From positions 1 through 41,157 of the forward strand of contig DYFK01000006.1 in NCBI GenBank assembly GCA_020725265.1: 41,157 nucleotides of DNA, read 5' to 3'. Shown piece by piece: positions 3,161 through 30,454 of the stretch; the stretch's first letter is position 1, and each line of letters starts with the position of its first letter. The translations under genes and the position numbers were made by a program. The notes beneath the pieces were generated by a model. It was not told the DNA's origin. It ran no database searches and worked only from the letters and a program-made list of their open reading frames with translations. The stretch comes from Hydrogenophilus sp. GTDB taxonomy: Bacteria; Pseudomonadota; Gammaproteobacteria; Burkholderiales; Thiobacillaceae.

Positions 3161-3506
3161 CGCAGGCAGCAGCGCAGACCGTGGACAACTACAAACGCCA
3201 GGCATTGCTTCAATCGCTGACCGCCGAGTATCTGGACATGTTCGCCAGCATGGACGATGCATCGCGCGCGGCGTGGTTCTTCACTTCACCACGGATGAAA
3301 GCGCCATCCTCGGCTTCGACGTGGGCAGGGGTGAAAGCCTGATGAGGGCCGAGGCGCGTCATGCCATCAAGCTACAGGCCATCGCCACGGCCTTGAGCAG
3401 CCTCCTCTGTGCCGGGAAGGAAGCGCGCACCATCGAGGACTTGCGCGCCATGGCCAACGCGATCCAGCAACGTCACGAGACACCGCGTCAGGCCGTCGGC
3501 GGCTGA
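3157..3506 (+). pseudogene. Hypothetical gene, probable frameshift near 3263-3273
   Basis: An ATG overlapping the previous stop (ATGA, 3157-3160) opens a helical protein of about 36 sensible residues. That frame then turns into serine- and proline-rich low-quality sequence and stops at 3342. From about 3270 another frame continues well with VVLHFTTDESAILGFDVGRGESL and a long helical tail to 3506. The switch coincides with a slippery CGCGCGCGGCG tract (3263-3273). The simplest reading is one protein of about 115 aa broken by a small indel, natural or a sequencing error. The alternative is two coupled small genes: 3157-3342 (61 aa) and 3342-3506 (54 aa), joined by a TGATG overlap with AGGGG upstream. 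I do not recognise the family. Confidence 0.55.
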
Positions 3507-19567: not shown

Positions 19568-20425
19568 TCAGGCGTGCCGGTTGACGATTTCGACCAGCTC
19601 GAAGGTCTGCAACAGCGAGGACTGCATGATTTCGACCAGCACCGCGCGCTCCAGCCCGAGGCTGTTCCAGGCCGCCTCGTCGAAGGTGAGGTCGTAGTCG
19701 GACAACTGGTAGCCGGTCTTGATGTCGGGGGCCATGTGGAAGGCGATGTCGGCCGCCACGTGCAGGATCGCCGCTTCCCTGGGATGGCCCTGGCACTGCT
19801 CCGGGAACAACTGGAAGGCGACGATCTCGTCGAGCACTTCCGGCACCCGCCAGGCGCGTAGCAGGGCGGCACCCAGCTCGGCGTAGGTGAAGCCGAACAC
19901 GAAGCGCTCGGCCTCGACGATCGCCGCCTCGCCGCGATCCTTGTCCTGCAGGACCTGCCGGTACTGGACCGGTCGTGCCGCGTAGAACACCAGCCGGCCG
20001 ACCTTGTGCAGCAGGCCGGCCAGGAACATGCGTTCGGCGTTCTTGACGCCGCACCTCTTGGCGAGATTGCGGCAGACCACGCCGCAATTGACGCTGTTGT
20101 CCCAGAAATCGAGCATGTTCACGAATTCTTCCGGAATGCCCTTGAAGCTGGTGATCACCGCCGTCGACAACACCAGATCGCGCAGGGCCTGATGGCCGAT
20201 CAGCGTGATCGCGCGCGAGATGGTGTCGACCTTGCTGGGCAGCCCGTACCAGGCGCTGTTGGCCAGCCGCAGCACGGTCGCGGCCAGGCCGGCATCGAGC
20301 TGGACGACATCGACCAGTTGCTGGTTGCTGGTGTCGGGTTGGTCCATCAGCTCGTTCAACCGGATCGCCACGTCGGGCAGGCTGAACAGGTGGTGGACTT
20401 CCTGGACCAGGAGTTGGGGCGTCAT
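19568..20425 (-). CDS. HDOD-domain signalling protein
   Basis: A 285-aa cytoplasmic protein made almost entirely of one HDOD domain (about residues 10-210). HDOD domains are non-catalytic relatives of HD phosphohydrolases often found in two-component and c-di-GMP circuits. Typical blocks are LVDVVQLDAGLAATVLRLANSAWYG and the FLAGLLHKVGRL helix. There the HD pair is replaced by HK, consistent with lost metal chemistry. It has an AAGG ribosome-binding site. It is the first gene of a four-gene operon with the binding protein, kinase and GGDEF-EAL regulator, and probably modulates their output. The target is unknown. Confidence 0.9.
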   Translation of the reverse strand: MTPQLLVQEVHHLFSLPDVAIRLNELMDQPDTSNQQLVDVVQLDAGLAATVLRLANSAWYGLPSKVDTISRAITLIGHQALRDLVLSTAVITSFKGIPEEFVNMLDFWDNSVNCGVVCRNLAKRCGVKNAERMFLAGLLHKVGRLVFYAARPVQYRQVLQDKDRGEAAIVEAERFVFGFTYAELGAALLRAWRVPEVLDEIVAFQLFPEQCQGHPREAAILHVAADIAFHMAPDIKTGYQLSDYDLTFDEAAWNSLGLERAVLVEIMQSSLLQTFELVEIVNRHA

Positions 20426-20522: not shown

Positions 20523-20568
20523 CGCGATCCGGTCGCCGCCTTTGGGGCCGAGGTCGATGACCCAGTCG
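20523..20568 (-). pseudogene. Scrap of a uvrA 3' end
   Basis: Read on the minus strand, these bases encode [16 protein letters not shown], the near-C-terminal signature of UvrA. The full gene has [18 protein letters not shown]. Eighteen bases (20551-20568) are identical to 27678-27695 in uvrA, and the surrounding 36 bases match at 31. The frame continues as unrelated sequence to a stop at 20463. It begins 6 bp beyond the JetD stop. It is too diverged to be a fresh copy of the uvrA in this window, so it is more likely the leftover end of an earlier resident allele. Confidence 0.65.
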
Positions 20569-20574
20569 CGTCAT

Positions 20575-21789
20575 TCAGAGCAGTGCCTCCTGTTCGCCTT
20601 TCTCGCCATGATCGAGCATCCACCTCAGAAGCCGGCGCAGGCTCTCGGGAAGTTGCGCCGCGAATAGTGCGTCGATTCGTTGTCGGTCGTCATCCGTCAA
20701 CGGCAGCCGCCGAGGCAGCGCGGCCAGATCTTCCGCGCCCATGCGCCAGGGTTTCCATGACACGCCCGCCGTGCTGAAAAGCCGGGCCGCGTCGAGCGCG
20801 ATCGCGATGCCGGCCGGGTCGGGATCGCAGGCGATGAGGCCCTGTGCCGGCCGCAGATCGATGAGTCGGGTTAGACAGGTTTTCCACCAGGAAGGCGCGA
20901 ATCCCGGCAACCAGATCACGCCGTCCTGATGTCCATGCCGAGCGGCGACCCGTTCGAAGCTGGTGCGGTTTTCCACCAGCCGCCATGCGCCAATCTCGCC
21001 TTCCAGACTGTCGAGGGCGTCGATCGTGGCGGGGGTGAGGCCGATGAAGTCGGGCAGGCCGGCCAGATCCAGATGCCAGTCCGCAGAGTGGAGGGACAGG
21101 GGCGCGGCCAGGAACAACAGCGGGGTATGCGCCGATACCCCCCAGGCTTCCAGGTCCAGACCTTCGGCCAGCCAGTTCTTTTCCGCTTCGGTGATGGCCT
21201 TGGTGCCGCCACGGGCGAGTTGGGCGAAATCGCGCCAGGTGCCGGTACGGCCTTCCGACCGCCAGCGGTTCAGCGCGGCGAGCAGTTCCAGGCGGGCCAG
21301 CGCCCGTTGTGCCGGCAGTCCGTCCAGTCGCGCCGCCAGTTCGGCCAACTCGTCCGGCAGGCGCGTGGCCGCGCGGGCGGCGGCCCATTGCGCGCGCCTT
21401 GCCTCGGGGTCGGGCAGCCCCAGGGCGGCGCGCGCCGCGCCGGGATCGAGGAACGTCAGCGCCACCGTTCGCCATTGGCCGCCCGTGAAACGCTCCTCCG
21501 TCTCGATCCAGCCGCCGGCCAGCAAGGCGTCGCGCAGGGTCTCGGCCTGGCTGTAGCGCGCGTTGCCGGCCTGCTTGAGCAGGCTGTCCCAGCGCCGTTG
21601 CGCCACGCCCCGGCAAAGCCATTCGCCAAGCAGAGCACGCCAATCGGCGGGCCAGGCGTCCAGCCCGGCCGGAGCCGGTGGGAATGCGCGGCGCAGCCTG
21701 CGGCCACGCAAGGTGGAGACGGCGCCGACGTCCAGCGGGCGGATCGAGATGCCGGCGGCGTCCGCCGCGGACCAACCGTCCGGGATCAT
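20575..21789 (-). CDS. jetD: Wadjet JetD-like Toprim nuclease subunit
   Basis: A 404-aa protein resembling the JetD subunit of Wadjet systems, the topoisomerase VI A-like nuclease that cuts circular plasmid DNA held by the SMC complex. The Toprim residues are visible: Glu273 in LVENRTSFER, and the DxD pair Asp322/Asp324 in CDPDPAG. The N-terminal 250 residues form the winged-helix and arm region usual for JetD but are only weakly similar to those I know. It overlaps the JetC gene by ATGA and is the last gene of the operon. The catalytic triad is intact. The subtype is uncertain; the divergence argues against a standard type I assignment. Confidence 0.8.
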   Translation of the reverse strand: MIPDGWSAADAAGISIRPLDVGAVSTLRGRRLRRAFPPAPAGLDAWPADWRALLGEWLCRGVAQRRWDSLLKQAGNARYSQAETLRDALLAGGWIETEERFTGGQWRTVALTFLDPGAARAALGLPDPEARRAQWAAARAATRLPDELAELAARLDGLPAQRALARLELLAALNRWRSEGRTGTWRDFAQLARGGTKAITEAEKNWLAEGLDLEAWGVSAHTPLLFLAAPLSLHSADWHLDLAGLPDFIGLTPATIDALDSLEGEIGAWRLVENRTSFERVAARHGHQDGVIWLPGFAPSWWKTCLTRLIDLRPAQGLIACDPDPAGIAIALDAARLFSTAGVSWKPWRMGAEDLAALPRRLPLTDDDRQRIDALFAAQLPESLRRLLRWMLDHGEKGEQEALL

Positions 21790-24614
21790 GGGTTCCGGCT
21801 CTGACGCTGGAGCACGGCGATGGGCGGCGCCCAGCGTTCTCCAGGAGGCTTTTTCCGGGTCATCAATACCAGCTCCGCCGGGTCATGCACGTTCAGGTTG
21901 TGGGTGACCGGACTGGTGATCAGGTACTGGGCGCGGGTGGCCTGGAGAAAGCCGCCGACCCGGTCGATGTTGAAGATGTCCAGATGGGCGAAGGGTTCGT
22001 CGATGAATACGAAGCCGCCGGGCCGTTCCTCGTCCATCATCATGCCGACCAACAGGATCAGCGATTTCATGACCTGCTGGCCGCCCGAGGCTTCGCCGTC
22101 GCTCAAGTGCTGGAAGCCCTTGCGGTCGAAATCGAAACGCACCACCAGGCCCGCCTGCGCCAGGGTCAGGTCGTCGTTTTCAAGATGCGGCGGCGCGCAT
22201 TCGACGCCGATGCCGGCCAGCTCGCCTAGCTGCCTGATGTTCTTCTGATACCTCCGCACGGTCGCCCGCAGCTTGGCGATGTAGGCCGCGCGGGCATCGG
22301 AGGTGATGTTCCTGGCGCGGTCAAGATCGCGCCGGCGCTGTTCCACATTGCTCTGGTCGGCGGCCAGATCGGCGATCAGCTTGTCGCGCACCGCCAGGCA
22401 GACCGGGTCGGTTTCCCAGTCGTCACGGTTGAGTTGGGTTTCGATGTCCTTGAGCCTTTGGCCGGCGACCCGCTGGGCGATCACGGCCTGACCCGTTTCA
22501 GGATCGAATTCCTGGGCCAGGGCGGAGAGCGCCTCGGGCTTGCGCCAGGCGGGCGGCATGCCGCGCCGGCTCTGGCGCAGCACCTGGTATCGCTTGCATT
22601 GCTCCTCGCGCTGGGAGCGGCTTTGTGTTTCCAGTTCGATCCGTTCCCGCTCGGCCTCTTGCCGGTTTCTCCGCGCATCCCTAAGCCCGGTGTCGGCGAC
22701 GTGCCAGGCTTCGCGGGCCCGCTCCAACGCGGACAACGCCTCCGCGAGTCGGATGCCGAGTTCATCCGCGCGCGCCTGTTCGAGTGGCAGCCGCGTCGCC
22801 GCCTCGTCGAACTCGGCTTCGCGCGCCATCAGTTGCCGGGCCGCGTCGTAGCCTTCCAGTTGCGCCTGCATGGGGGCGATGCGCTGGGTCAATTCCACGA
22901 GCAGCCGGCCGATGTTCCGCATTCTCGTTTCCAGCGCCTGGTTTTCCTCGCGCAGCGCATCCAGGCGTGCCTTGCGCGCCGCCTCGCCGAACTGCCAATC
23001 ACCCCGTTCCAGCCCCAGGTGGCGGGCGCCGCGGCGCTCCTTGTGATAGCCGGCGGGCGTTACCCATTCCGTCGCCTCGGACAGGCGCGCGCCTTCCGCC
23101 ACATCGGCCACGCGCAGCACCCGGTTGAGGTGTTGCGCCATCCAGGCGGGGGCGGGCCGGGTGAAGCGCAGCACCGCCAGCAGGGAGGCCGGATCGGCGG
23201 TGGCTGCTTCGGCCAGGTCCGCCACCACGAAATGGCGGTACCCCAGACGTTCGCCAAGGCGCCAGGCCTGCTCCCGCTGGCCTGGGCGGTCGATGAGGAT
23301 GATGTGGCGGTAGGCGGCCAGCAGCGCCTCCACGGCGCCCTGCCAGGCCGGATCGGTCACCTCGACGATGTCGGCCAGCAGCCGGTGGACGATGCCCGCC
23401 TCGTCCAGGGCGGCACGAAAGCGCCGCACGAATTCCGGCGTCGGACGCTGGCCGGCATGCAGCAGGTTCCGCTCCTCTTCCAGGTTCTGGAGACGTTCCC
23501 GCAGACGCGCCCTTTCATCCTCCAGTTCACGTTTCTCTCTGCGCAGGCGGGTGAGCGTCTCGCCGACGTCGGCGCCCTCCTGGCGTGCCAGATGCAGGAG
23601 TTGCTGCTGTTGCCGAAGCACGGTTTCGCTCGCCACGACGGCATCGCGCGCCGTCTGGAACTCCGCTTGCAGCGCGTTGGCGCTTTCCTGAGCGTCGCTT
23701 CGTTCTCTGGCCACCTGGGCCAATCGCGTTCGCCTGGATTCCAGTATCTCGGTCGCTTGTTGGGATTGGGTCCGCGTCGCCAGCAGTTGGCGTTTGAGGC
23801 CCGCGAGCTGGCTGCGCCCACCCTGGATGGATTCGCGTACCTCCGCGAATCTGAGCCGAGGCAGGATCTCGCCGACCAGGGCTTGGCGCTGCCGCGTCAA
23901 TGCGCGCCATTCCTCGTGATTACGGGCGCGCGTCCTGGCGGTTTCGACGCGGTTCTCCAGGGCCGCCAGTTTGCGCTCGGCTTCCTCCAGTTCCCGCTCG
24001 CTGAGCGATTGATCATTCTTCGCCGCCTGGTAGTCATCCAGCACCGCCTGGTCGCCGAACACGGTGAACACCAGCTTGAGCAACTGGGTCGGCGAGTATT
24101 CGCACAGCTTGTCGGTATCGCCCTGTTCCAGGGCCAGCACCTCGGTGATGGCGTGGGTGAGTCCCGCCGATTCCAGGCGGCGCTTGTAGTCGTTGACGCC
24201 GAGTTCGCCGCCGCCTTTCCCGGCGCGGGCTTCCAGGTCCTCAATGGACAGGGCACCGCCCTCGATCAGGTATTGCCGCACCCAGTCACCGCCTTGCTTG
24301 CGGATGCGGCAGGCGAGGGTGACCTCGGCATCGGTGAGGGGCCAGAACGGGTAGGCGTATTGCCGGCCACCGCCCTTGTCGTTACCGACCACGGCGCGTA
24401 TCCAGGCGAACGGCGCGTCGGCGTGGCGCGCGTAGTGTTTCCAGTCGCGCCTGCCGGAACACTTGATGGCGAACAGCGTGCGCAGCGCGTCGAGCAGGGT
24501 GGTCTTGCCGGAGCCGTTGGGGCCGACGATGCCGACGATGTTGGCGTCCAGCGGCAGGGCCAGACGTTGCCAAAAATCCCAATGCACCAGTTCGAGGGAT
24601 TTGAGGTGGAACAT
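21786..24614 (-). CDS. jetC: Wadjet JetC-like SMC ATPase
   Basis: A 942-aa SMC-family protein, the DNA-extruding motor of the predicted Wadjet complex. Walker A GPNGSGKTT is at 31-39. Two long coiled coils (about 200-390 and 545-800) flank a hinge-like globular domain at about 405-540. The ABC signature SGGQQ is at 843-847, Walker B FVFIDEP at 868-874, and the D-loop AHLD follows. All ATPase motifs are intact. The hinge resembles true SMC proteins more than the type I JetC group. The protein is also rather short, which together suggests a type II-like system. It overlaps JetB by one base (TGATG) and JetD by ATGA, so stoichiometric production is likely. Confidence 0.85.
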   Translation of the reverse strand: MFHLKSLELVHWDFWQRLALPLDANIVGIVGPNGSGKTTLLDALRTLFAIKCSGRRDWKHYARHADAPFAWIRAVVGNDKGGGRQYAYPFWPLTDAEVTLACRIRKQGGDWVRQYLIEGGALSIEDLEARAGKGGGELGVNDYKRRLESAGLTHAITEVLALEQGDTDKLCEYSPTQLLKLVFTVFGDQAVLDDYQAAKNDQSLSERELEEAERKLAALENRVETARTRARNHEEWRALTRQRQALVGEILPRLRFAEVRESIQGGRSQLAGLKRQLLATRTQSQQATEILESRRTRLAQVARERSDAQESANALQAEFQTARDAVVASETVLRQQQQLLHLARQEGADVGETLTRLRREKRELEDERARLRERLQNLEEERNLLHAGQRPTPEFVRRFRAALDEAGIVHRLLADIVEVTDPAWQGAVEALLAAYRHIILIDRPGQREQAWRLGERLGYRHFVVADLAEAATADPASLLAVLRFTRPAPAWMAQHLNRVLRVADVAEGARLSEATEWVTPAGYHKERRGARHLGLERGDWQFGEAARKARLDALREENQALETRMRNIGRLLVELTQRIAPMQAQLEGYDAARQLMAREAEFDEAATRLPLEQARADELGIRLAEALSALERAREAWHVADTGLRDARRNRQEAERERIELETQSRSQREEQCKRYQVLRQSRRGMPPAWRKPEALSALAQEFDPETGQAVIAQRVAGQRLKDIETQLNRDDWETDPVCLAVRDKLIADLAADQSNVEQRRRDLDRARNITSDARAAYIAKLRATVRRYQKNIRQLGELAGIGVECAPPHLENDDLTLAQAGLVVRFDFDRKGFQHLSDGEASGGQQVMKSLILLVGMMMDEERPGGFVFIDEPFAHLDIFNIDRVGGFLQATRAQYLITSPVTHNLNVHDPAELVLMTRKKPPGERWAPPIAVLQRQSRNP

Positions 24615-25315
24615 CAGAAAGGATCCCCCGATCTTTCGTCGTCGTCCGTGACGTCATCCGCGCTTCCAACATCGGTTCGCGCCGCATCGGGGGCCAGCAG
24701 CTCCGCCAGGGCGCCCTCGATGATGCGCGGCGCCATGGTCTGGTAGTCGAAGGCCAGATCGAGCAAAGGGCCTTCGTGCACCAGCTTGTTGCGCCGATCG
24801 ATGAAGCCGGCGCGCGCCAGCATGCCCAGATTGAAATTGATGCGCGTCTTGCCCCCCAGACGCGCGCCGAACTCGGCCACCAGGGTCACTTCGGGTAGAC
24901 CGGCGGCCACCTCCTCGCCGCGTGGCAAGGGTTTCTCCGCGCCGAACATGTCGCCCTGGGGCGGGTCGGCAAGCGATTGGCGCGCGATCTGCCGTTCCCG
25001 TTTGGGCAGGATCAGGAGCGCCCAGAGCACCACCAGCAGGGCGATGCCGTCGCGCGGCAGGCCCAGGTTGTTGGACAGCCAGTGGGCCATGCCGCCGAAC
25101 ACAGCGTCCTCGACCTCCCGGCGCAGGCCGACCGCCAGGTGGTCGGCGTAGGGGTTCTCCAGCAAGGTCAGGCCGACGGCGGCCAACCGCGCGTCCAGGT
25201 CGGCGCGGAAGACGTCATCGGACAAGGCGCGCCGGGCCAGGGCATCGTCGCGCGGAACGGCGCGGTGGGTGAGCAGGCGGGCGACCAGGGTGGCGGCGGG
25301 ATCGGACATGGGCAT
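24614..25315 (-). CDS. jetB: Wadjet JetB-like (MukE/DUF4194-type) subunit
   Basis: A 233-aa winged-helix protein in the position and size of JetB, the MukE-like kite subunit that binds the kleisin. A hydrophobic helix (GIALLVVLWALLILP, about 89-103) resembles the core helix of this family and is probably not a membrane span. Residues 128-200 look like a winged-helix pair, including EFGARLGGKTRINFNLGMLARAGFI. The C-terminus is acidic and flexible. The ATG follows directly after the JetA stop (TGA-ATG), and the stop shares one base with the JetC start. Identification depends on context as much as on sequence. Confidence 0.75.
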   Translation of the reverse strand: MPMSDPAATLVARLLTHRAVPRDDALARRALSDDVFRADLDARLAAVGLTLLENPYADHLAVGLRREVEDAVFGGMAHWLSNNLGLPRDGIALLVVLWALLILPKRERQIARQSLADPPQGDMFGAEKPLPRGEEVAAGLPEVTLVAEFGARLGGKTRINFNLGMLARAGFIDRRNKLVHEGPLLDLAFDYQTMAPRIIEGALAELLAPDAARTDVGSADDVTDDDERSGDPF

Positions 25316-26590
25316 TCAGGAGTCGGTGCGTGGCAGAAGCCGTCCGCGGCTGATGCGGGCAATGCCGTGACGGTGGACTTCCTCCAGACTGTCGTCGACC
25401 ACCAGTTCCAGCGGCAGCGCGGCGAAGGCGCCGACCGGGTCGGACAGGCCCTGGGTCTCCCGGTCTCCCAGGAAGGCCAGCAGCGACAGTCGGTAGGCGG
25501 CATCGCGCCAGTCGCCGCCGGCGACCGCGTCCGCCAGCGGCAAGGGGGCGTCCACCTGGCTCAGCAGGGACATGAAGCGTTCCAGATGCACCAGTCGTTC
25601 CTCGGCCGGGGCATCCATGCGCGGCGCATCCTGGGGGGCCGGCAAAGCGGTTTCGGCGGCCTTGATACGTTCCCGGTCGATGAGCTCGAATTCGGCCACG
25701 TCCGCCATTTCCATGGGCGTGACGAAGGCGGGCTCGGGCACGGCCGCGAGCGCCCCGTCCATGAGCGCGATGAGCGCCGCCTGATCGCGACCGCGCAACC
25801 AGGCCAGCACATCCGAGGAATTCAGCCCGGATGCCCCCAGATGCACGCGCTGGGCCTCGATGCGGGCGATGGCCCGCTGAAAACTCGCTTCCATGCGCAG
25901 CAGCTCGCCCTGGGCGCGGCCGATGGCGCCGACGATGTCGTAGTCGGCGCCATCGAGGTCGCCATCCTTGGCCAGTTCGCGGATGACTTCCGAGCCTTTC
26001 TCCACCCAGCGGTACGCCGAGTCGAGCCGCTCGCGCGCGGCCCGGATGCGCGTCTCGGCGCCGGACACGATGGCCGCCTGGAAATCCTGTTTCAGCTCGG
26101 TCAGACGGCCCAGCAGGTGGCGCAGGGTATCCGGCGACACCCGCCCCATGGCCTGGCCGGCGGCCACCTGGGCGGTCAGATAGCCGAGGTCGGAATCACG
26201 CGTTTCGGCGAAATCGAGCAACACCGCCAAGGCGGACAGGGCGGTGCGGCCAACCGGGGAAAGCTGATACCAGCCTTCCTCGCCATCCCAGACCAGCAGG
26301 CCCTCGCGCCGGAAACGCAGCAGGACGGTATCCAGCTTGGTGGCGTCGAGATAGGCGAACAGGGCGCGAATTTCCTGCGGACTCCAGCGCGGCGCCTCGG
26401 CGCGCAGCCCCAGTTCGCGCAGCACGTGCAGGCGCAGCACCACCATGTCGCTGCCGCCGGAAAACAGCGTGGCGAAGGCGTCCAGCACTTCGCGCGCCCG
26501 GATCAGCCCATACAGCCCGGGAACGTCGGCCGCTTCGTAACGCGGCGCCAGATACCCCGCCAGATTGTCGGAGTCTTGCGGTAGCGCCAT
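25316..26590 (-). CDS. jetA: Wadjet JetA-like (MukF-type kleisin) subunit
   Basis: A 424-aa protein in the first position of the Wadjet-like operon, as expected for the kleisin that bridges the SMC heads. An N-terminal winged helix (about 25-110; LLRFRREGLLVWDGEEGWYQLS gives the wing) is followed by a helical bundle (about 115-260) with heptad-like leucines. A C-terminal winged-helix-like part (about 340-424) ends in LEEVHRHGIARISRGRLLPRT. It has no catalytic motif, which fits a structural role. It is encoded 36 bp downstream of DUF2442 and directly adjoins JetB. DUF3375 similarity typical of type I JetA is not obvious. Confidence 0.75.
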   Translation of the reverse strand: MALPQDSDNLAGYLAPRYEAADVPGLYGLIRAREVLDAFATLFSGGSDMVVLRLHVLRELGLRAEAPRWSPQEIRALFAYLDATKLDTVLLRFRREGLLVWDGEEGWYQLSPVGRTALSALAVLLDFAETRDSDLGYLTAQVAAGQAMGRVSPDTLRHLLGRLTELKQDFQAAIVSGAETRIRAARERLDSAYRWVEKGSEVIRELAKDGDLDGADYDIVGAIGRAQGELLRMEASFQRAIARIEAQRVHLGASGLNSSDVLAWLRGRDQAALIALMDGALAAVPEPAFVTPMEMADVAEFELIDRERIKAAETALPAPQDAPRMDAPAEERLVHLERFMSLLSQVDAPLPLADAVAGGDWRDAAYRLSLLAFLGDRETQGLSDPVGAFAALPLELVVDDSLEEVHRHGIARISRGRLLPRTDS

Positions 26591-26626
26591 TCAGGGTGAG
26601 CGGAGACTGAAGCAATGCAAGATATG

Positions 26627-26881
26627 TCAGGCGGCGATCCGATTGCCGCGCGTACGATCTGCGATGCCCATCAACAGGCCCTCGACATGGATGTCCTCAT
26701 CCAGTTCATCCCGGTGGATGCCAGCGCCGCCGCCGGACAGCTCGTGGTTCTTCAACTGCTCGATCGTGGCGGCCAGCAGTTGGGGGAAACAGGCGAGGGG
26801 CGCGCCCAGCTTGCGGCCGTCGGCGAGGCTGATCCACATCATGCCGCCATCGAAGCTCGGTTCAGTCGCCGCAGTGTTCAT
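26627..26881 (-). CDS. DUF2442 protein
   Basis: An 84-aa protein with the DUF2442 signature: W-SLADGRKLGAPLACFPQLLAA and later GIHRDELDEDIHVEGLL. DUF2442 genes usually sit beside a DUF4160 gene in pairs thought to be toxin-antitoxin systems. No DUF4160 gene is visible here; the neighbours are a zeta-toxin remnant and the Wadjet-like operon. It lies 23 bp downstream of the small basic ORF, so it may have been re-used in this toxin module. The start is ATG at 26881; in the family, DUF2442 binds or regulates rather than catalyses, but this is poorly established. Confidence 0.85.
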   Translation of the reverse strand: MNTAATEPSFDGGMMWISLADGRKLGAPLACFPQLLAATIEQLKNHELSGGGAGIHRDELDEDIHVEGLLMGIADRTRGNRIAA

Positions 26882-26904
26882 GCCACGCCCTTACGGCGGC
26901 AGGA

Positions 26905-27063
26905 CTATGCTGTTTTCTTTGTAGGGGCGTGCTTGCTGGCTTGTTGTTCCTCAGCCGCCGTCTTTCTGGCCAATTCACGGGCATGCTTGGCCGCGCGGCG
27001 CAATGCCGGGAGGGATTTCGCCAGGTCGGAGGTCTTGGCTTGTTCAATCGGCTTTGGGTTCAT
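26905..27063 (-). CDS. Small basic protein, possible zeta-toxin antitoxin
   Basis: A 52-aa lysine- and alanine-rich helical protein. It opens with NPKPIEQAKTSDLAKSLPALRRAAKHARELARK, which recalls small proteins found beside chromosomal zeta-like kinases. Its ATG (27061-27063) overlaps, in another frame, the last codons of the zeta-like pseudogene, as expected for a toxin-antitoxin pair. A GGGGAG ribosome-binding site lies upstream. The C-terminal 18 residues are low-complexity and may be altered. If it is the antitoxin, it now has no active toxin to neutralise. Confidence 0.55.
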   Translation of the reverse strand: MNPKPIEQAKTSDLAKSLPALRRAAKHARELARKTAAEEQQASKHAPTKKTA

Positions 27064-27554
27064 CGCGTTCTCCCCAATCAAGGAGCTTTGGTTTGTTGCC
27101 TGAATTGTCGTACATCGCCCAGGCATCGACCAAGTGTCGGTAGATTCGCTTGAAGTTACCCAATCCCGAGGCAAAGCGTCACCTTATGACCGCCTTGCCG
27201 TACACGCAGGGCGACTCGGGAGATGGCGTCTTCGGGTTCAGGCAGACTCAGGAAAAAGAGTTCAACGCGATAACCAAGCGCTTGCCATTCGGGAATGCGC
27301 CGGGCATACCCCACACCCGACAAGGTGGTTTCAAAGGCGAAACTTTCCTTTCGCCGAACATGTTCCACGATTTGTTCGAGCATGATGCGCGCAGCGCGGA
27401 CCGTTGCCGTGTCTGGCGAGAAAGGTGACAAACCCGCCGCAATCAAGTCGGCGTTGACGAAGATCGGGCAAGCGGCTTCGTTGGGCAGGAATTCCCGGGC
27501 GAAGGTTGTTTTCCCCGCCCCGTTCGGCCCTGCGATGATGATGATTTTCGGCAC
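27044..27554 (-). pseudogene. Zeta-toxin-like kinase, inactivated by a small deletion
   Basis: The GTG start (27554) lies two bases after the uvrA stop. The first frame encodes a clear P-loop kinase of the zeta-toxin group: Walker A AGPNGAGKTTFAREF (residues 8-22), FVNADLIAAGLSP, FETTLSGVGYARRI. It runs on to RVRQGGHKV, where family members continue PEAVIRRRF. Here that frame instead ends in TLCLGIG. A second frame resumes at once with RFASGLGNFKRIYRHLVDAWAMYDNSG and KPKLLDWGERDEP, the proper C-terminus, stopping at 27044. About 20 bp appear lost near 27179. The 132-aa remnant lacks the C-terminal part and is probably inactive. Confidence 0.85.
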
Positions 27555-27556
27555 TT

Positions 27557-30397
<2,841 letters not shown>

Positions 30398-30424
30398 GGT
30401 CGGAACCGGCTTGGAAAACGGCCA

Positions 30425-30454
30425 AATATACGCGTACGGCGCGGTCCGGCTCAA
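30425..30454 (-). promoter_or_regulatory. Candidate uvrA promoter
   Basis: On the minus strand TTGAGC (30454-30449) and TATATT (30430-30425) are separated by 18 bp, a fair sigma-70 match placed 28 bp before the uvrA start codon. I see no LexA-type CTG-N10-CAG box in the 209-bp divergent region (30398-30606), so SOS control is not evident. On the plus strand of the same region a TAAAAT (30518-30523) may serve the MFS gene, without a clear -35. Confidence 0.5.

Follow-up and report, generated by a model that had tools for sequence, protein, structure and literature searches.

The window, a 41,157-nucleotide stretch of a Hydrogenophilus sp. genome, contains a Wadjet-type four-gene architecture in which JetA-, JetB-, JetC-, and JetD-like genes are adjacent to one another. 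Judging from their sequences, these genes quite probably encode an SMC complex of the Wadjet/MksBEFG kind that is armed with a nuclease and belongs to a branch largely missed by current defense models. On the best reading, the operon would be functional and horizontally acquired, and would encode a Wadjet-like plasmid cutter whose family straddles the MksBEF condensins and Wadjet.

The jetABCD-like operon extends from 20575 to 26590 and consists of four open reading frames on the minus strand, in the order A-B-C-D. The first gene (25316..26590) encodes a protein of 424 aa that occupies the MksF/JetA position and is a putative kleisin. The second (24614..25315; 233 aa) occupies the MksE/JetB position and encodes a putative KITE protein. 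These are followed by the gene for a JetC/MksB-like SMC ATPase (21786..24614; 942 aa), which is matched by PADLOC JetC1 and Pfam SMC_N, and by the gene for a predicted JetD/MksG-like Toprim nuclease (20575..21789; 404 aa), which possesses E273, D322, and D324 and a C-terminal KGEQE. JetA and JetB abut, with TGA directly followed by ATG. JetB and JetC overlap by 1 nt (TGATG), and JetC and JetD overlap by 4 nt (ATGA). This arrangement is not due to chance, since the same order recurs in other genomes at identities of 42-59%. A promoter and terminator scan of the window gave no promoter-like sites and seven terminator-like sites, against 4.7 expected. A preliminary description of this DNA had placed the operon at these coordinates and had called it a complete Wadjet-like SMC system of a divergent subtype. 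Both points are upheld by the four reading frames with intact motifs, the JetC and JetD homology, and the tight operon whose gene order is found elsewhere.

Profile comparison identifies JetC as a full-length homologue of type I JetC. Against type I reference sets taken from other genomes, which were used for all profile-profile comparisons, JetC was aligned over 853 columns at an E-value of 2.2e-40 and a probability of 100%. The PADLOC JetC1 model matched it at 2e-27 with partial coverage. Matches to single proteins were found with E. coli MukB (8e-6) and with the window genome’s own Smc (9e-6). Among solved structures, the top match of the JetC profile was JetC 8dk2; PA14 is one source of such structures (PMC10586767). 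The Walker A (GPNGSGKT, residues 31-38), signature (SGGQQ, 843-847), and Walker B (VFIDEP, 869-874) motifs are all present, and their residues are invariant across 30 aligned rows, window included. Positions 345-595 of the JetC profile match a solved Smc hinge construct (4rsj, E 6.5e-6). Such a hinge is no argument against type I, because E. coli GF4-3 is described as having a type I JetC with a ring-shaped SMC hinge; the hinge of the type II N. vireti system (nvJET) is described in the same source as being without the ring/channel feature (PMC12647877).

JetD can likewise be identified as a homologue of type I JetD. The profile-profile match covered 281 columns (E 2e-14, probability 98%), and none of 60 column shuffles scored as high. 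PADLOC JetD1 matched residues 213-404 at an E-value of 2.1e-15, and the N-terminal half had no PADLOC match. There was also a weak match to the Toprim domain of topoisomerase VI subunit A (E 0.0043). Glu273, Asp322, and Asp324 are all kept in 21 of the 24 aligned JetDs, the window among them. The ATPase motifs, the SMC-like hinge, and the three Toprim residues that had been noted earlier are each found again here. Catalytic residues have been lost from three linked JetDs, two from Crenobacter and one from Pseudogulbenkiania.

A kleisin role for JetA and a KITE role for JetB are suggested by gene position and by weak profile matches. Neither window protein had a match in Pfam, in NCBIfam, or in PADLOC (none at E<=0.001 and none at E<=1), and no Wadjet model of PADLOC matched any of ten JetA and JetB rows (6 and 4, window included). 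One JetA row (L020) had a weak PADLOC match to JukB (7.7e-5). In the profile-profile comparison, JetA was matched to type I JetA over 43 collinear columns (E 0.0065, probability 5.8%), and none of 60 column shuffles scored as high. This match is not specific, because the off-target pair of JetD and type I JetA gave an E-value of 0.0044 over 22 columns, which is no weaker. JetB was matched to type I JetB over 141 collinear columns (E 9.5e-4, probability 22%; 0 of 60 shuffles as high). The same method missed type I JetA and JetB against single MukF and MukE, so the two roles stay putative. Both proteins are conserved, JetA over 57 aligned rows and JetB over 50. The two small partner genes of the preliminary description, which had named them a kleisin and a kite, are present, and these two labels are less secure than those of JetC and JetD. 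Since PADLOC-DB 2.0.0 has no model for this JetA and JetB, such systems may escape defense surveys. With near-copies excluded, the alignments used 56 of 56 (A5), 49 of 63 (A6), and 29 of 51 (A8) relatives, and 20 of 20 plus L032 (A7); L027, L032, L033, and L114 were left out of the JetA, JetB, and JetC alignments.

The nearest known type appears to be Wadjet type I (JetABCD/EptABCD/C. glutamicum MksBEFG), to which the window system would be related as a separate short-JetC branch. The two share the A-B-C-D order, homology along most of JetC, the Toprim Glu and DxD of JetD, and an SMC-like hinge. They differ in three respects. The JetA1 and JetB1 models do not recognize the window JetA and JetB, the aligned part of 24 type I JetCs exceeds the window JetC by about 140-240 aa, and JetD is missing from the vicinity of JetC in 56 of the 80 best relatives. 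A type I control locus from the same bacterial family (L031) gave PADLOC scores of 587 (JetA1), 237 (JetB1), 1178 (JetC1), and 477 bits (JetD1), whereas the window matched, of these four models, only JetC1 and JetD1. Because the JetA1/JetB1 test failed, the window system is not filed as type I.

Since the closest models of JetC and JetD are those of type I, the operon could instead be an ordinary type I Wadjet, divergent enough to lie below library thresholds, with no separate branch needed. This is unlikely. The ten JetA and JetB rows had no Wadjet model, while L031 scored 587 bits for JetA1 and 1178 bits for JetC1. JetC is 923-946 aa long in the aligned family rows (942 in the window), against 1085-1180 aligned residues in the 24 type I JetCs. 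Furthermore, genome G072 holds both a short-JetC locus and the full type I Wadjet of L031. The divergent type I reading competes only with the claim of a separate branch and is compatible with the mechanism proposed below. A second, weaker JetD match was seen in two family-bearing genomes, G072 (L031) and G067 (L013); that of G072 belongs to the full type I Wadjet, and thus the two kinds coexist. The JetC of the short-JetC locus L022 in G072 is split over two frames, either as a pseudogene or by sequencing error. A type I JetC1 match was present in 24 of 274 genomes of the class.

Wadjet types II and III have the same general four-part plan. The window had no JetD2 or JetD3 match, all four of its JetD matches being to JetD1, and neither JetC2 nor JetC3 was among the best 25 of 43 JetC matches. 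Identity as type II or III is thus not supported by the models, which favor type I with JetC1 and JetD1 as best matches, and the earlier suggestion of a type II system is not borne out. Classification with JetA-D profiles, which had been proposed as a check, gave JetC1 and JetD1 as best matches and no type I-III model for JetA and JetB. A few relatives had weak JetC2, JetC3, or JetD2 matches that ranked under their own type I matches. A type II JetD search of 299 genomes of the phylum gave no match, and its controls gave none either, so that its outcome carries no weight. The window JetC also has weak ATPase and coiled-coil likeness to Lamassu (LmuB) and other SMC-like defense ATPases. The window differs from Lamassu, as its make-up is described in PMC10586767, in having two small partners and a JetD-type Toprim nuclease rather than Lamassu effectors. 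A full-text literature search, with subscription papers and preprints mostly outside its coverage, turned up no paper that names a new Wadjet, a type IV, or a Wadjet subtype, and the terms Wadjet-like and Wadjet variant were each seen in a single paper.

The family was surveyed by a JetC pattern scan of 84,980 species genomes. It matched 550 stretches, 503 of which encode a relative, and the loci of the best 80 of these 503 were explored. The named relatives are mostly Chromobacteriaceae, Chitinibacteraceae, Zoogloeaceae, Rhodocyclaceae, Sterolibacteriaceae, and Rhodanobacteraceae. Of the 80 loci, 79 have a JetB and 72 a JetA; the order is A-B-C in every case, and about 1 kb sometimes separates the genes. 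Seven of the eight loci that are missing JetA begin too near a contig end; the eighth, L086, has room, and no JetA was detected there. JetA is in several pieces in L027 (G176), which may be a pseudogene or a sequencing error. JetD was present together with JetC in 21 loci, including L083 where it is 5.4 kb away, not found in 56, and unjudgeable in three. Here, JetD-less means that no JetD was matched in a locus with at least 1.3 kb of sequence after JetC, a stretch that is short in several loci.

The 56 JetD-less loci held no JetD remnants by tblastn (E 0.01). Whole genomes were searched for 44 of them, with all six positive controls found, and 39 had no JetD match at E<=1e-5. Among the remaining five, three possess a full-length JetD on another contig, one a C-terminal fragment (L177, Methyloversatilis discipulorum), and one a weak match. 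These three full-length orphan JetDs, from Chromobacterium (L174-L176), had no JetA, JetB, or JetC within the 11 kb examined, and two of the three have lost the second catalytic Asp. A replacement effector was rejected, since no conserved gene was seen after JetC in the 56 JetD-less loci and the commonest first-downstream clusters reach only 6 of 56. The JetC motifs are intact in the JetD-less relatives as well.

Closer to home, 14 of 149 relatives of the window genome carry JetC, seven with a close JetD (E below 1e-80) and seven without it, and all seven genomes with a close JetD also carry JetC. Among 274 genomes of the class, only the window’s own genome was matched for JetC (E<=1e-100) and JetD (E<=1e-20); these counts are lower bounds, since at most three or six candidates were scored per genome. 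A JetA search of 369 genomes of the class gave matches in three, one of them with JetA in pieces.

JetD appears to have been gained or lost many times. On a tree of 83 JetC rows (JetD present in 25, not found in 55, and unknown in 3), the JetD label must change 12 times, and well-supported branches force at least 11 of these changes. Shuffled labels average 21.7 changes, so the label is clustered but repeatedly changed. This is a quick, unrooted tree in which the window row has a long branch (0.91) and an unsure placement. It omits L022 and L065, with split or partial JetC, and L037, L089, and L111, which are copies of L020, L026, and L021. Since the tree is unrooted, the direction of change can only be suggested. 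The JetC and JetD identity matrices are correlated (r 0.84 over 24 loci; none of 5000 permutations as high) when the rows dropped from the tree and L112, with its partial JetD, are left out. The correlation is more consistent with a long-standing pairing from which JetD was repeatedly lost than with unrelated nucleases having been captured again and again.

The nuclease seems to come or go next to one chromosomal neighbor, since armed and unarmed loci are both found beside prfB or obg. With prfB just upstream, JetD is present in four loci, absent in nine, and unknown in one. With obg just upstream, it is present in two and absent in 11. These counts are from a strict list, as a grouping that extended to 6.5 kb was considered too permissive, and prfB and obg were each identified by Pfam from one representative. 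Armed copies can be chromosomally settled too. L034, L035, and L111 are armed; on one side they have an aldehyde-dehydrogenase-family gene, which is probably proA, and on the other a gene whose product has lipoyl and pyridine-nucleotide-disulphide oxidoreductase domains. In L034, L035, L111, and L078 (Nitrosospira and other records), a JetABCD set with nuclease adjoins the probable proA.

Because the motor without JetD is common in the relatives, JetD appears to be an effector that can be detached, and the motor appears to have a second, nuclease-free use. By analogy with what is reported for MksBEF, the unarmed relatives probably serve in chromosome organization. It can be proposed, tentatively and at slightly less than an even chance, that the family forms a series from Wadjet to condensin. 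In this series JetD would have been repeatedly carried, unlinked, disabled, or lost as defense complexes became chromosome organizers, or the reverse, and the window would be an armed and recently moved member. A repeatedly detachable nuclease is the wider interest of the family. Armed and unarmed sets beside the same neighbor offer a test of whether Wadjet came from condensins or the reverse, and of the requirements for an SMC motor to distinguish a plasmid from a chromosome.

For the window system, a mechanism can be outlined from type I work on extrusion, stalling, and cutting (PMC10586767, PMC12287153, PMC12647877, PMC10123090). JetC would dimerize, be bridged by the JetA kleisin together with JetB KITE dimers, and load on DNA. 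JetABC would then reel in DNA with ATP by loop extrusion. On a small circle, the motors would run out of DNA and stall, and the stalled motors would allow a dimer of the JetD Toprim nuclease to cleave the segment that is trapped. On a long chromosome, stalling and cutting would rarely happen. Loop extrusion, circle sensing, and JetD activation would all be shared with type I by analogy. C. glutamicum MksG is described as cutting DNA in vitro without MksBEF (PMC10123090), which differs in this detail.

The operon could also encode mainly an MksBEF-type chromosome-organizing condensin, with JetD as a passenger or a regulator, for example of chromosome topology, rather than a plasmid cutter. P. 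aeruginosa MksB has a length similar to that of the family JetC. Many relatives are three-gene, nuclease-free sets like MksBEF, and the window genome has Smc too. The abundance of JetD-less loci with intact JetC motifs, the 39 of 44 searched genomes with no JetD, and the presence of obg or prfB just upstream in 20 of the 56 JetD-less loci all agree with this reading, as does the description of P. aeruginosa MksBEF as a chromosome-organizing condensin (PMC7485682). It is nevertheless quite improbable for the window, where JetD is intact and overlaps JetC, where JetD divergence follows that of JetC, and where a single copy in the genus at a variable site, with Smc present, is unlike a housekeeping condensin. 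The window differs from P. aeruginosa MksBEF, which may or may not belong to this family, in having a nuclease. The preliminary description would have given way to an MksBEF condensin with a non-nuclease fourth gene. The fourth gene of the window is an intact predicted nuclease, yet JetD was not found near JetC in 56 of the 80 best-scoring loci. A housekeeping condensin that replaces Smc was ruled out, since the window genome carries a standard Smc (1019 bits) and the operon is thus not its only condensin.

The plasmid-cutter reading also agrees with the location of the window copy, which is apparently single and horizontally acquired. Among 23 genomes of the genus, several of them incomplete, the operon was found only in the window genome. 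It lies in a variable site between uvrA (27557..30454, minus strand), with UvrA domains at the near flank, and an HDOD-domain gene (19568..20425, minus strand; Pfam HDOD 5e-58) at the far flank. A 36-nt remnant of the uvrA 3' end (20533..20568, minus strand), 86% identical to uvrA 27660-27695, sits between JetD and the HDOD gene at the far boundary of the insert; 11 protein letters of it were compared with 12 of uvrA. In the sister genome G001, uvrA directly adjoins the HDOD gene (the uvrA match ends at 3258 and HDOD begins at 3264, L139). The gap is about 3.7 kb in G014 and about 1.8 kb in G015. The empty gap in G001 and the uvrA 3' pieces point to acquisition of the operon into a variable site. 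Larger partial uvrA 3' duplicates in G015 (L140 4347-5222, inside the uvrA-HDOD gap) and G002 (L141) suggest that this site is enlarged by exchanges in which the end of uvrA takes part.

The same insert contains a truncated zeta-toxin-like ORF (27156..27554, minus strand; 132 aa; Pfam Zeta_toxin). Its residues 1-125 are 98.4% identical to a 222-aa gene in a sister genome (L143). G020 has zeta-toxin-like and DUF2442 genes downstream of uvrA, on a contig without the HDOD gene. Although this neighboring ORF is truncated and catalytic residues of JetD are lost in some relatives, a decaying, non-functional remnant is very improbable, since none of the four window genes is shortened and the checked catalytic residues are in place. 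After the zeta-toxin-like ORF, a DUF2442-like stretch was recognized by eye at 26591-27156, and GC falls to about 0.60 around these two features.

A phage- or plasmid-borne family was considered and rejected. The phage search gave no JetD match and one weak viral contig for JetC. The plasmid search gave no JetA match and only incomplete sets of JetC and JetD, on Variovorax and Diaphorobacter plasmids. Plasmid 2 of Variovorax sp. RA8 (L032) carries an IS1071 transposase gene next to the C-terminal half of a family JetC, after which comes a JetD of 393 aa. The WDL1 plasmid has a match similar to L032, and the Diaphorobacter plasmid (L033) carries a piece of JetD.
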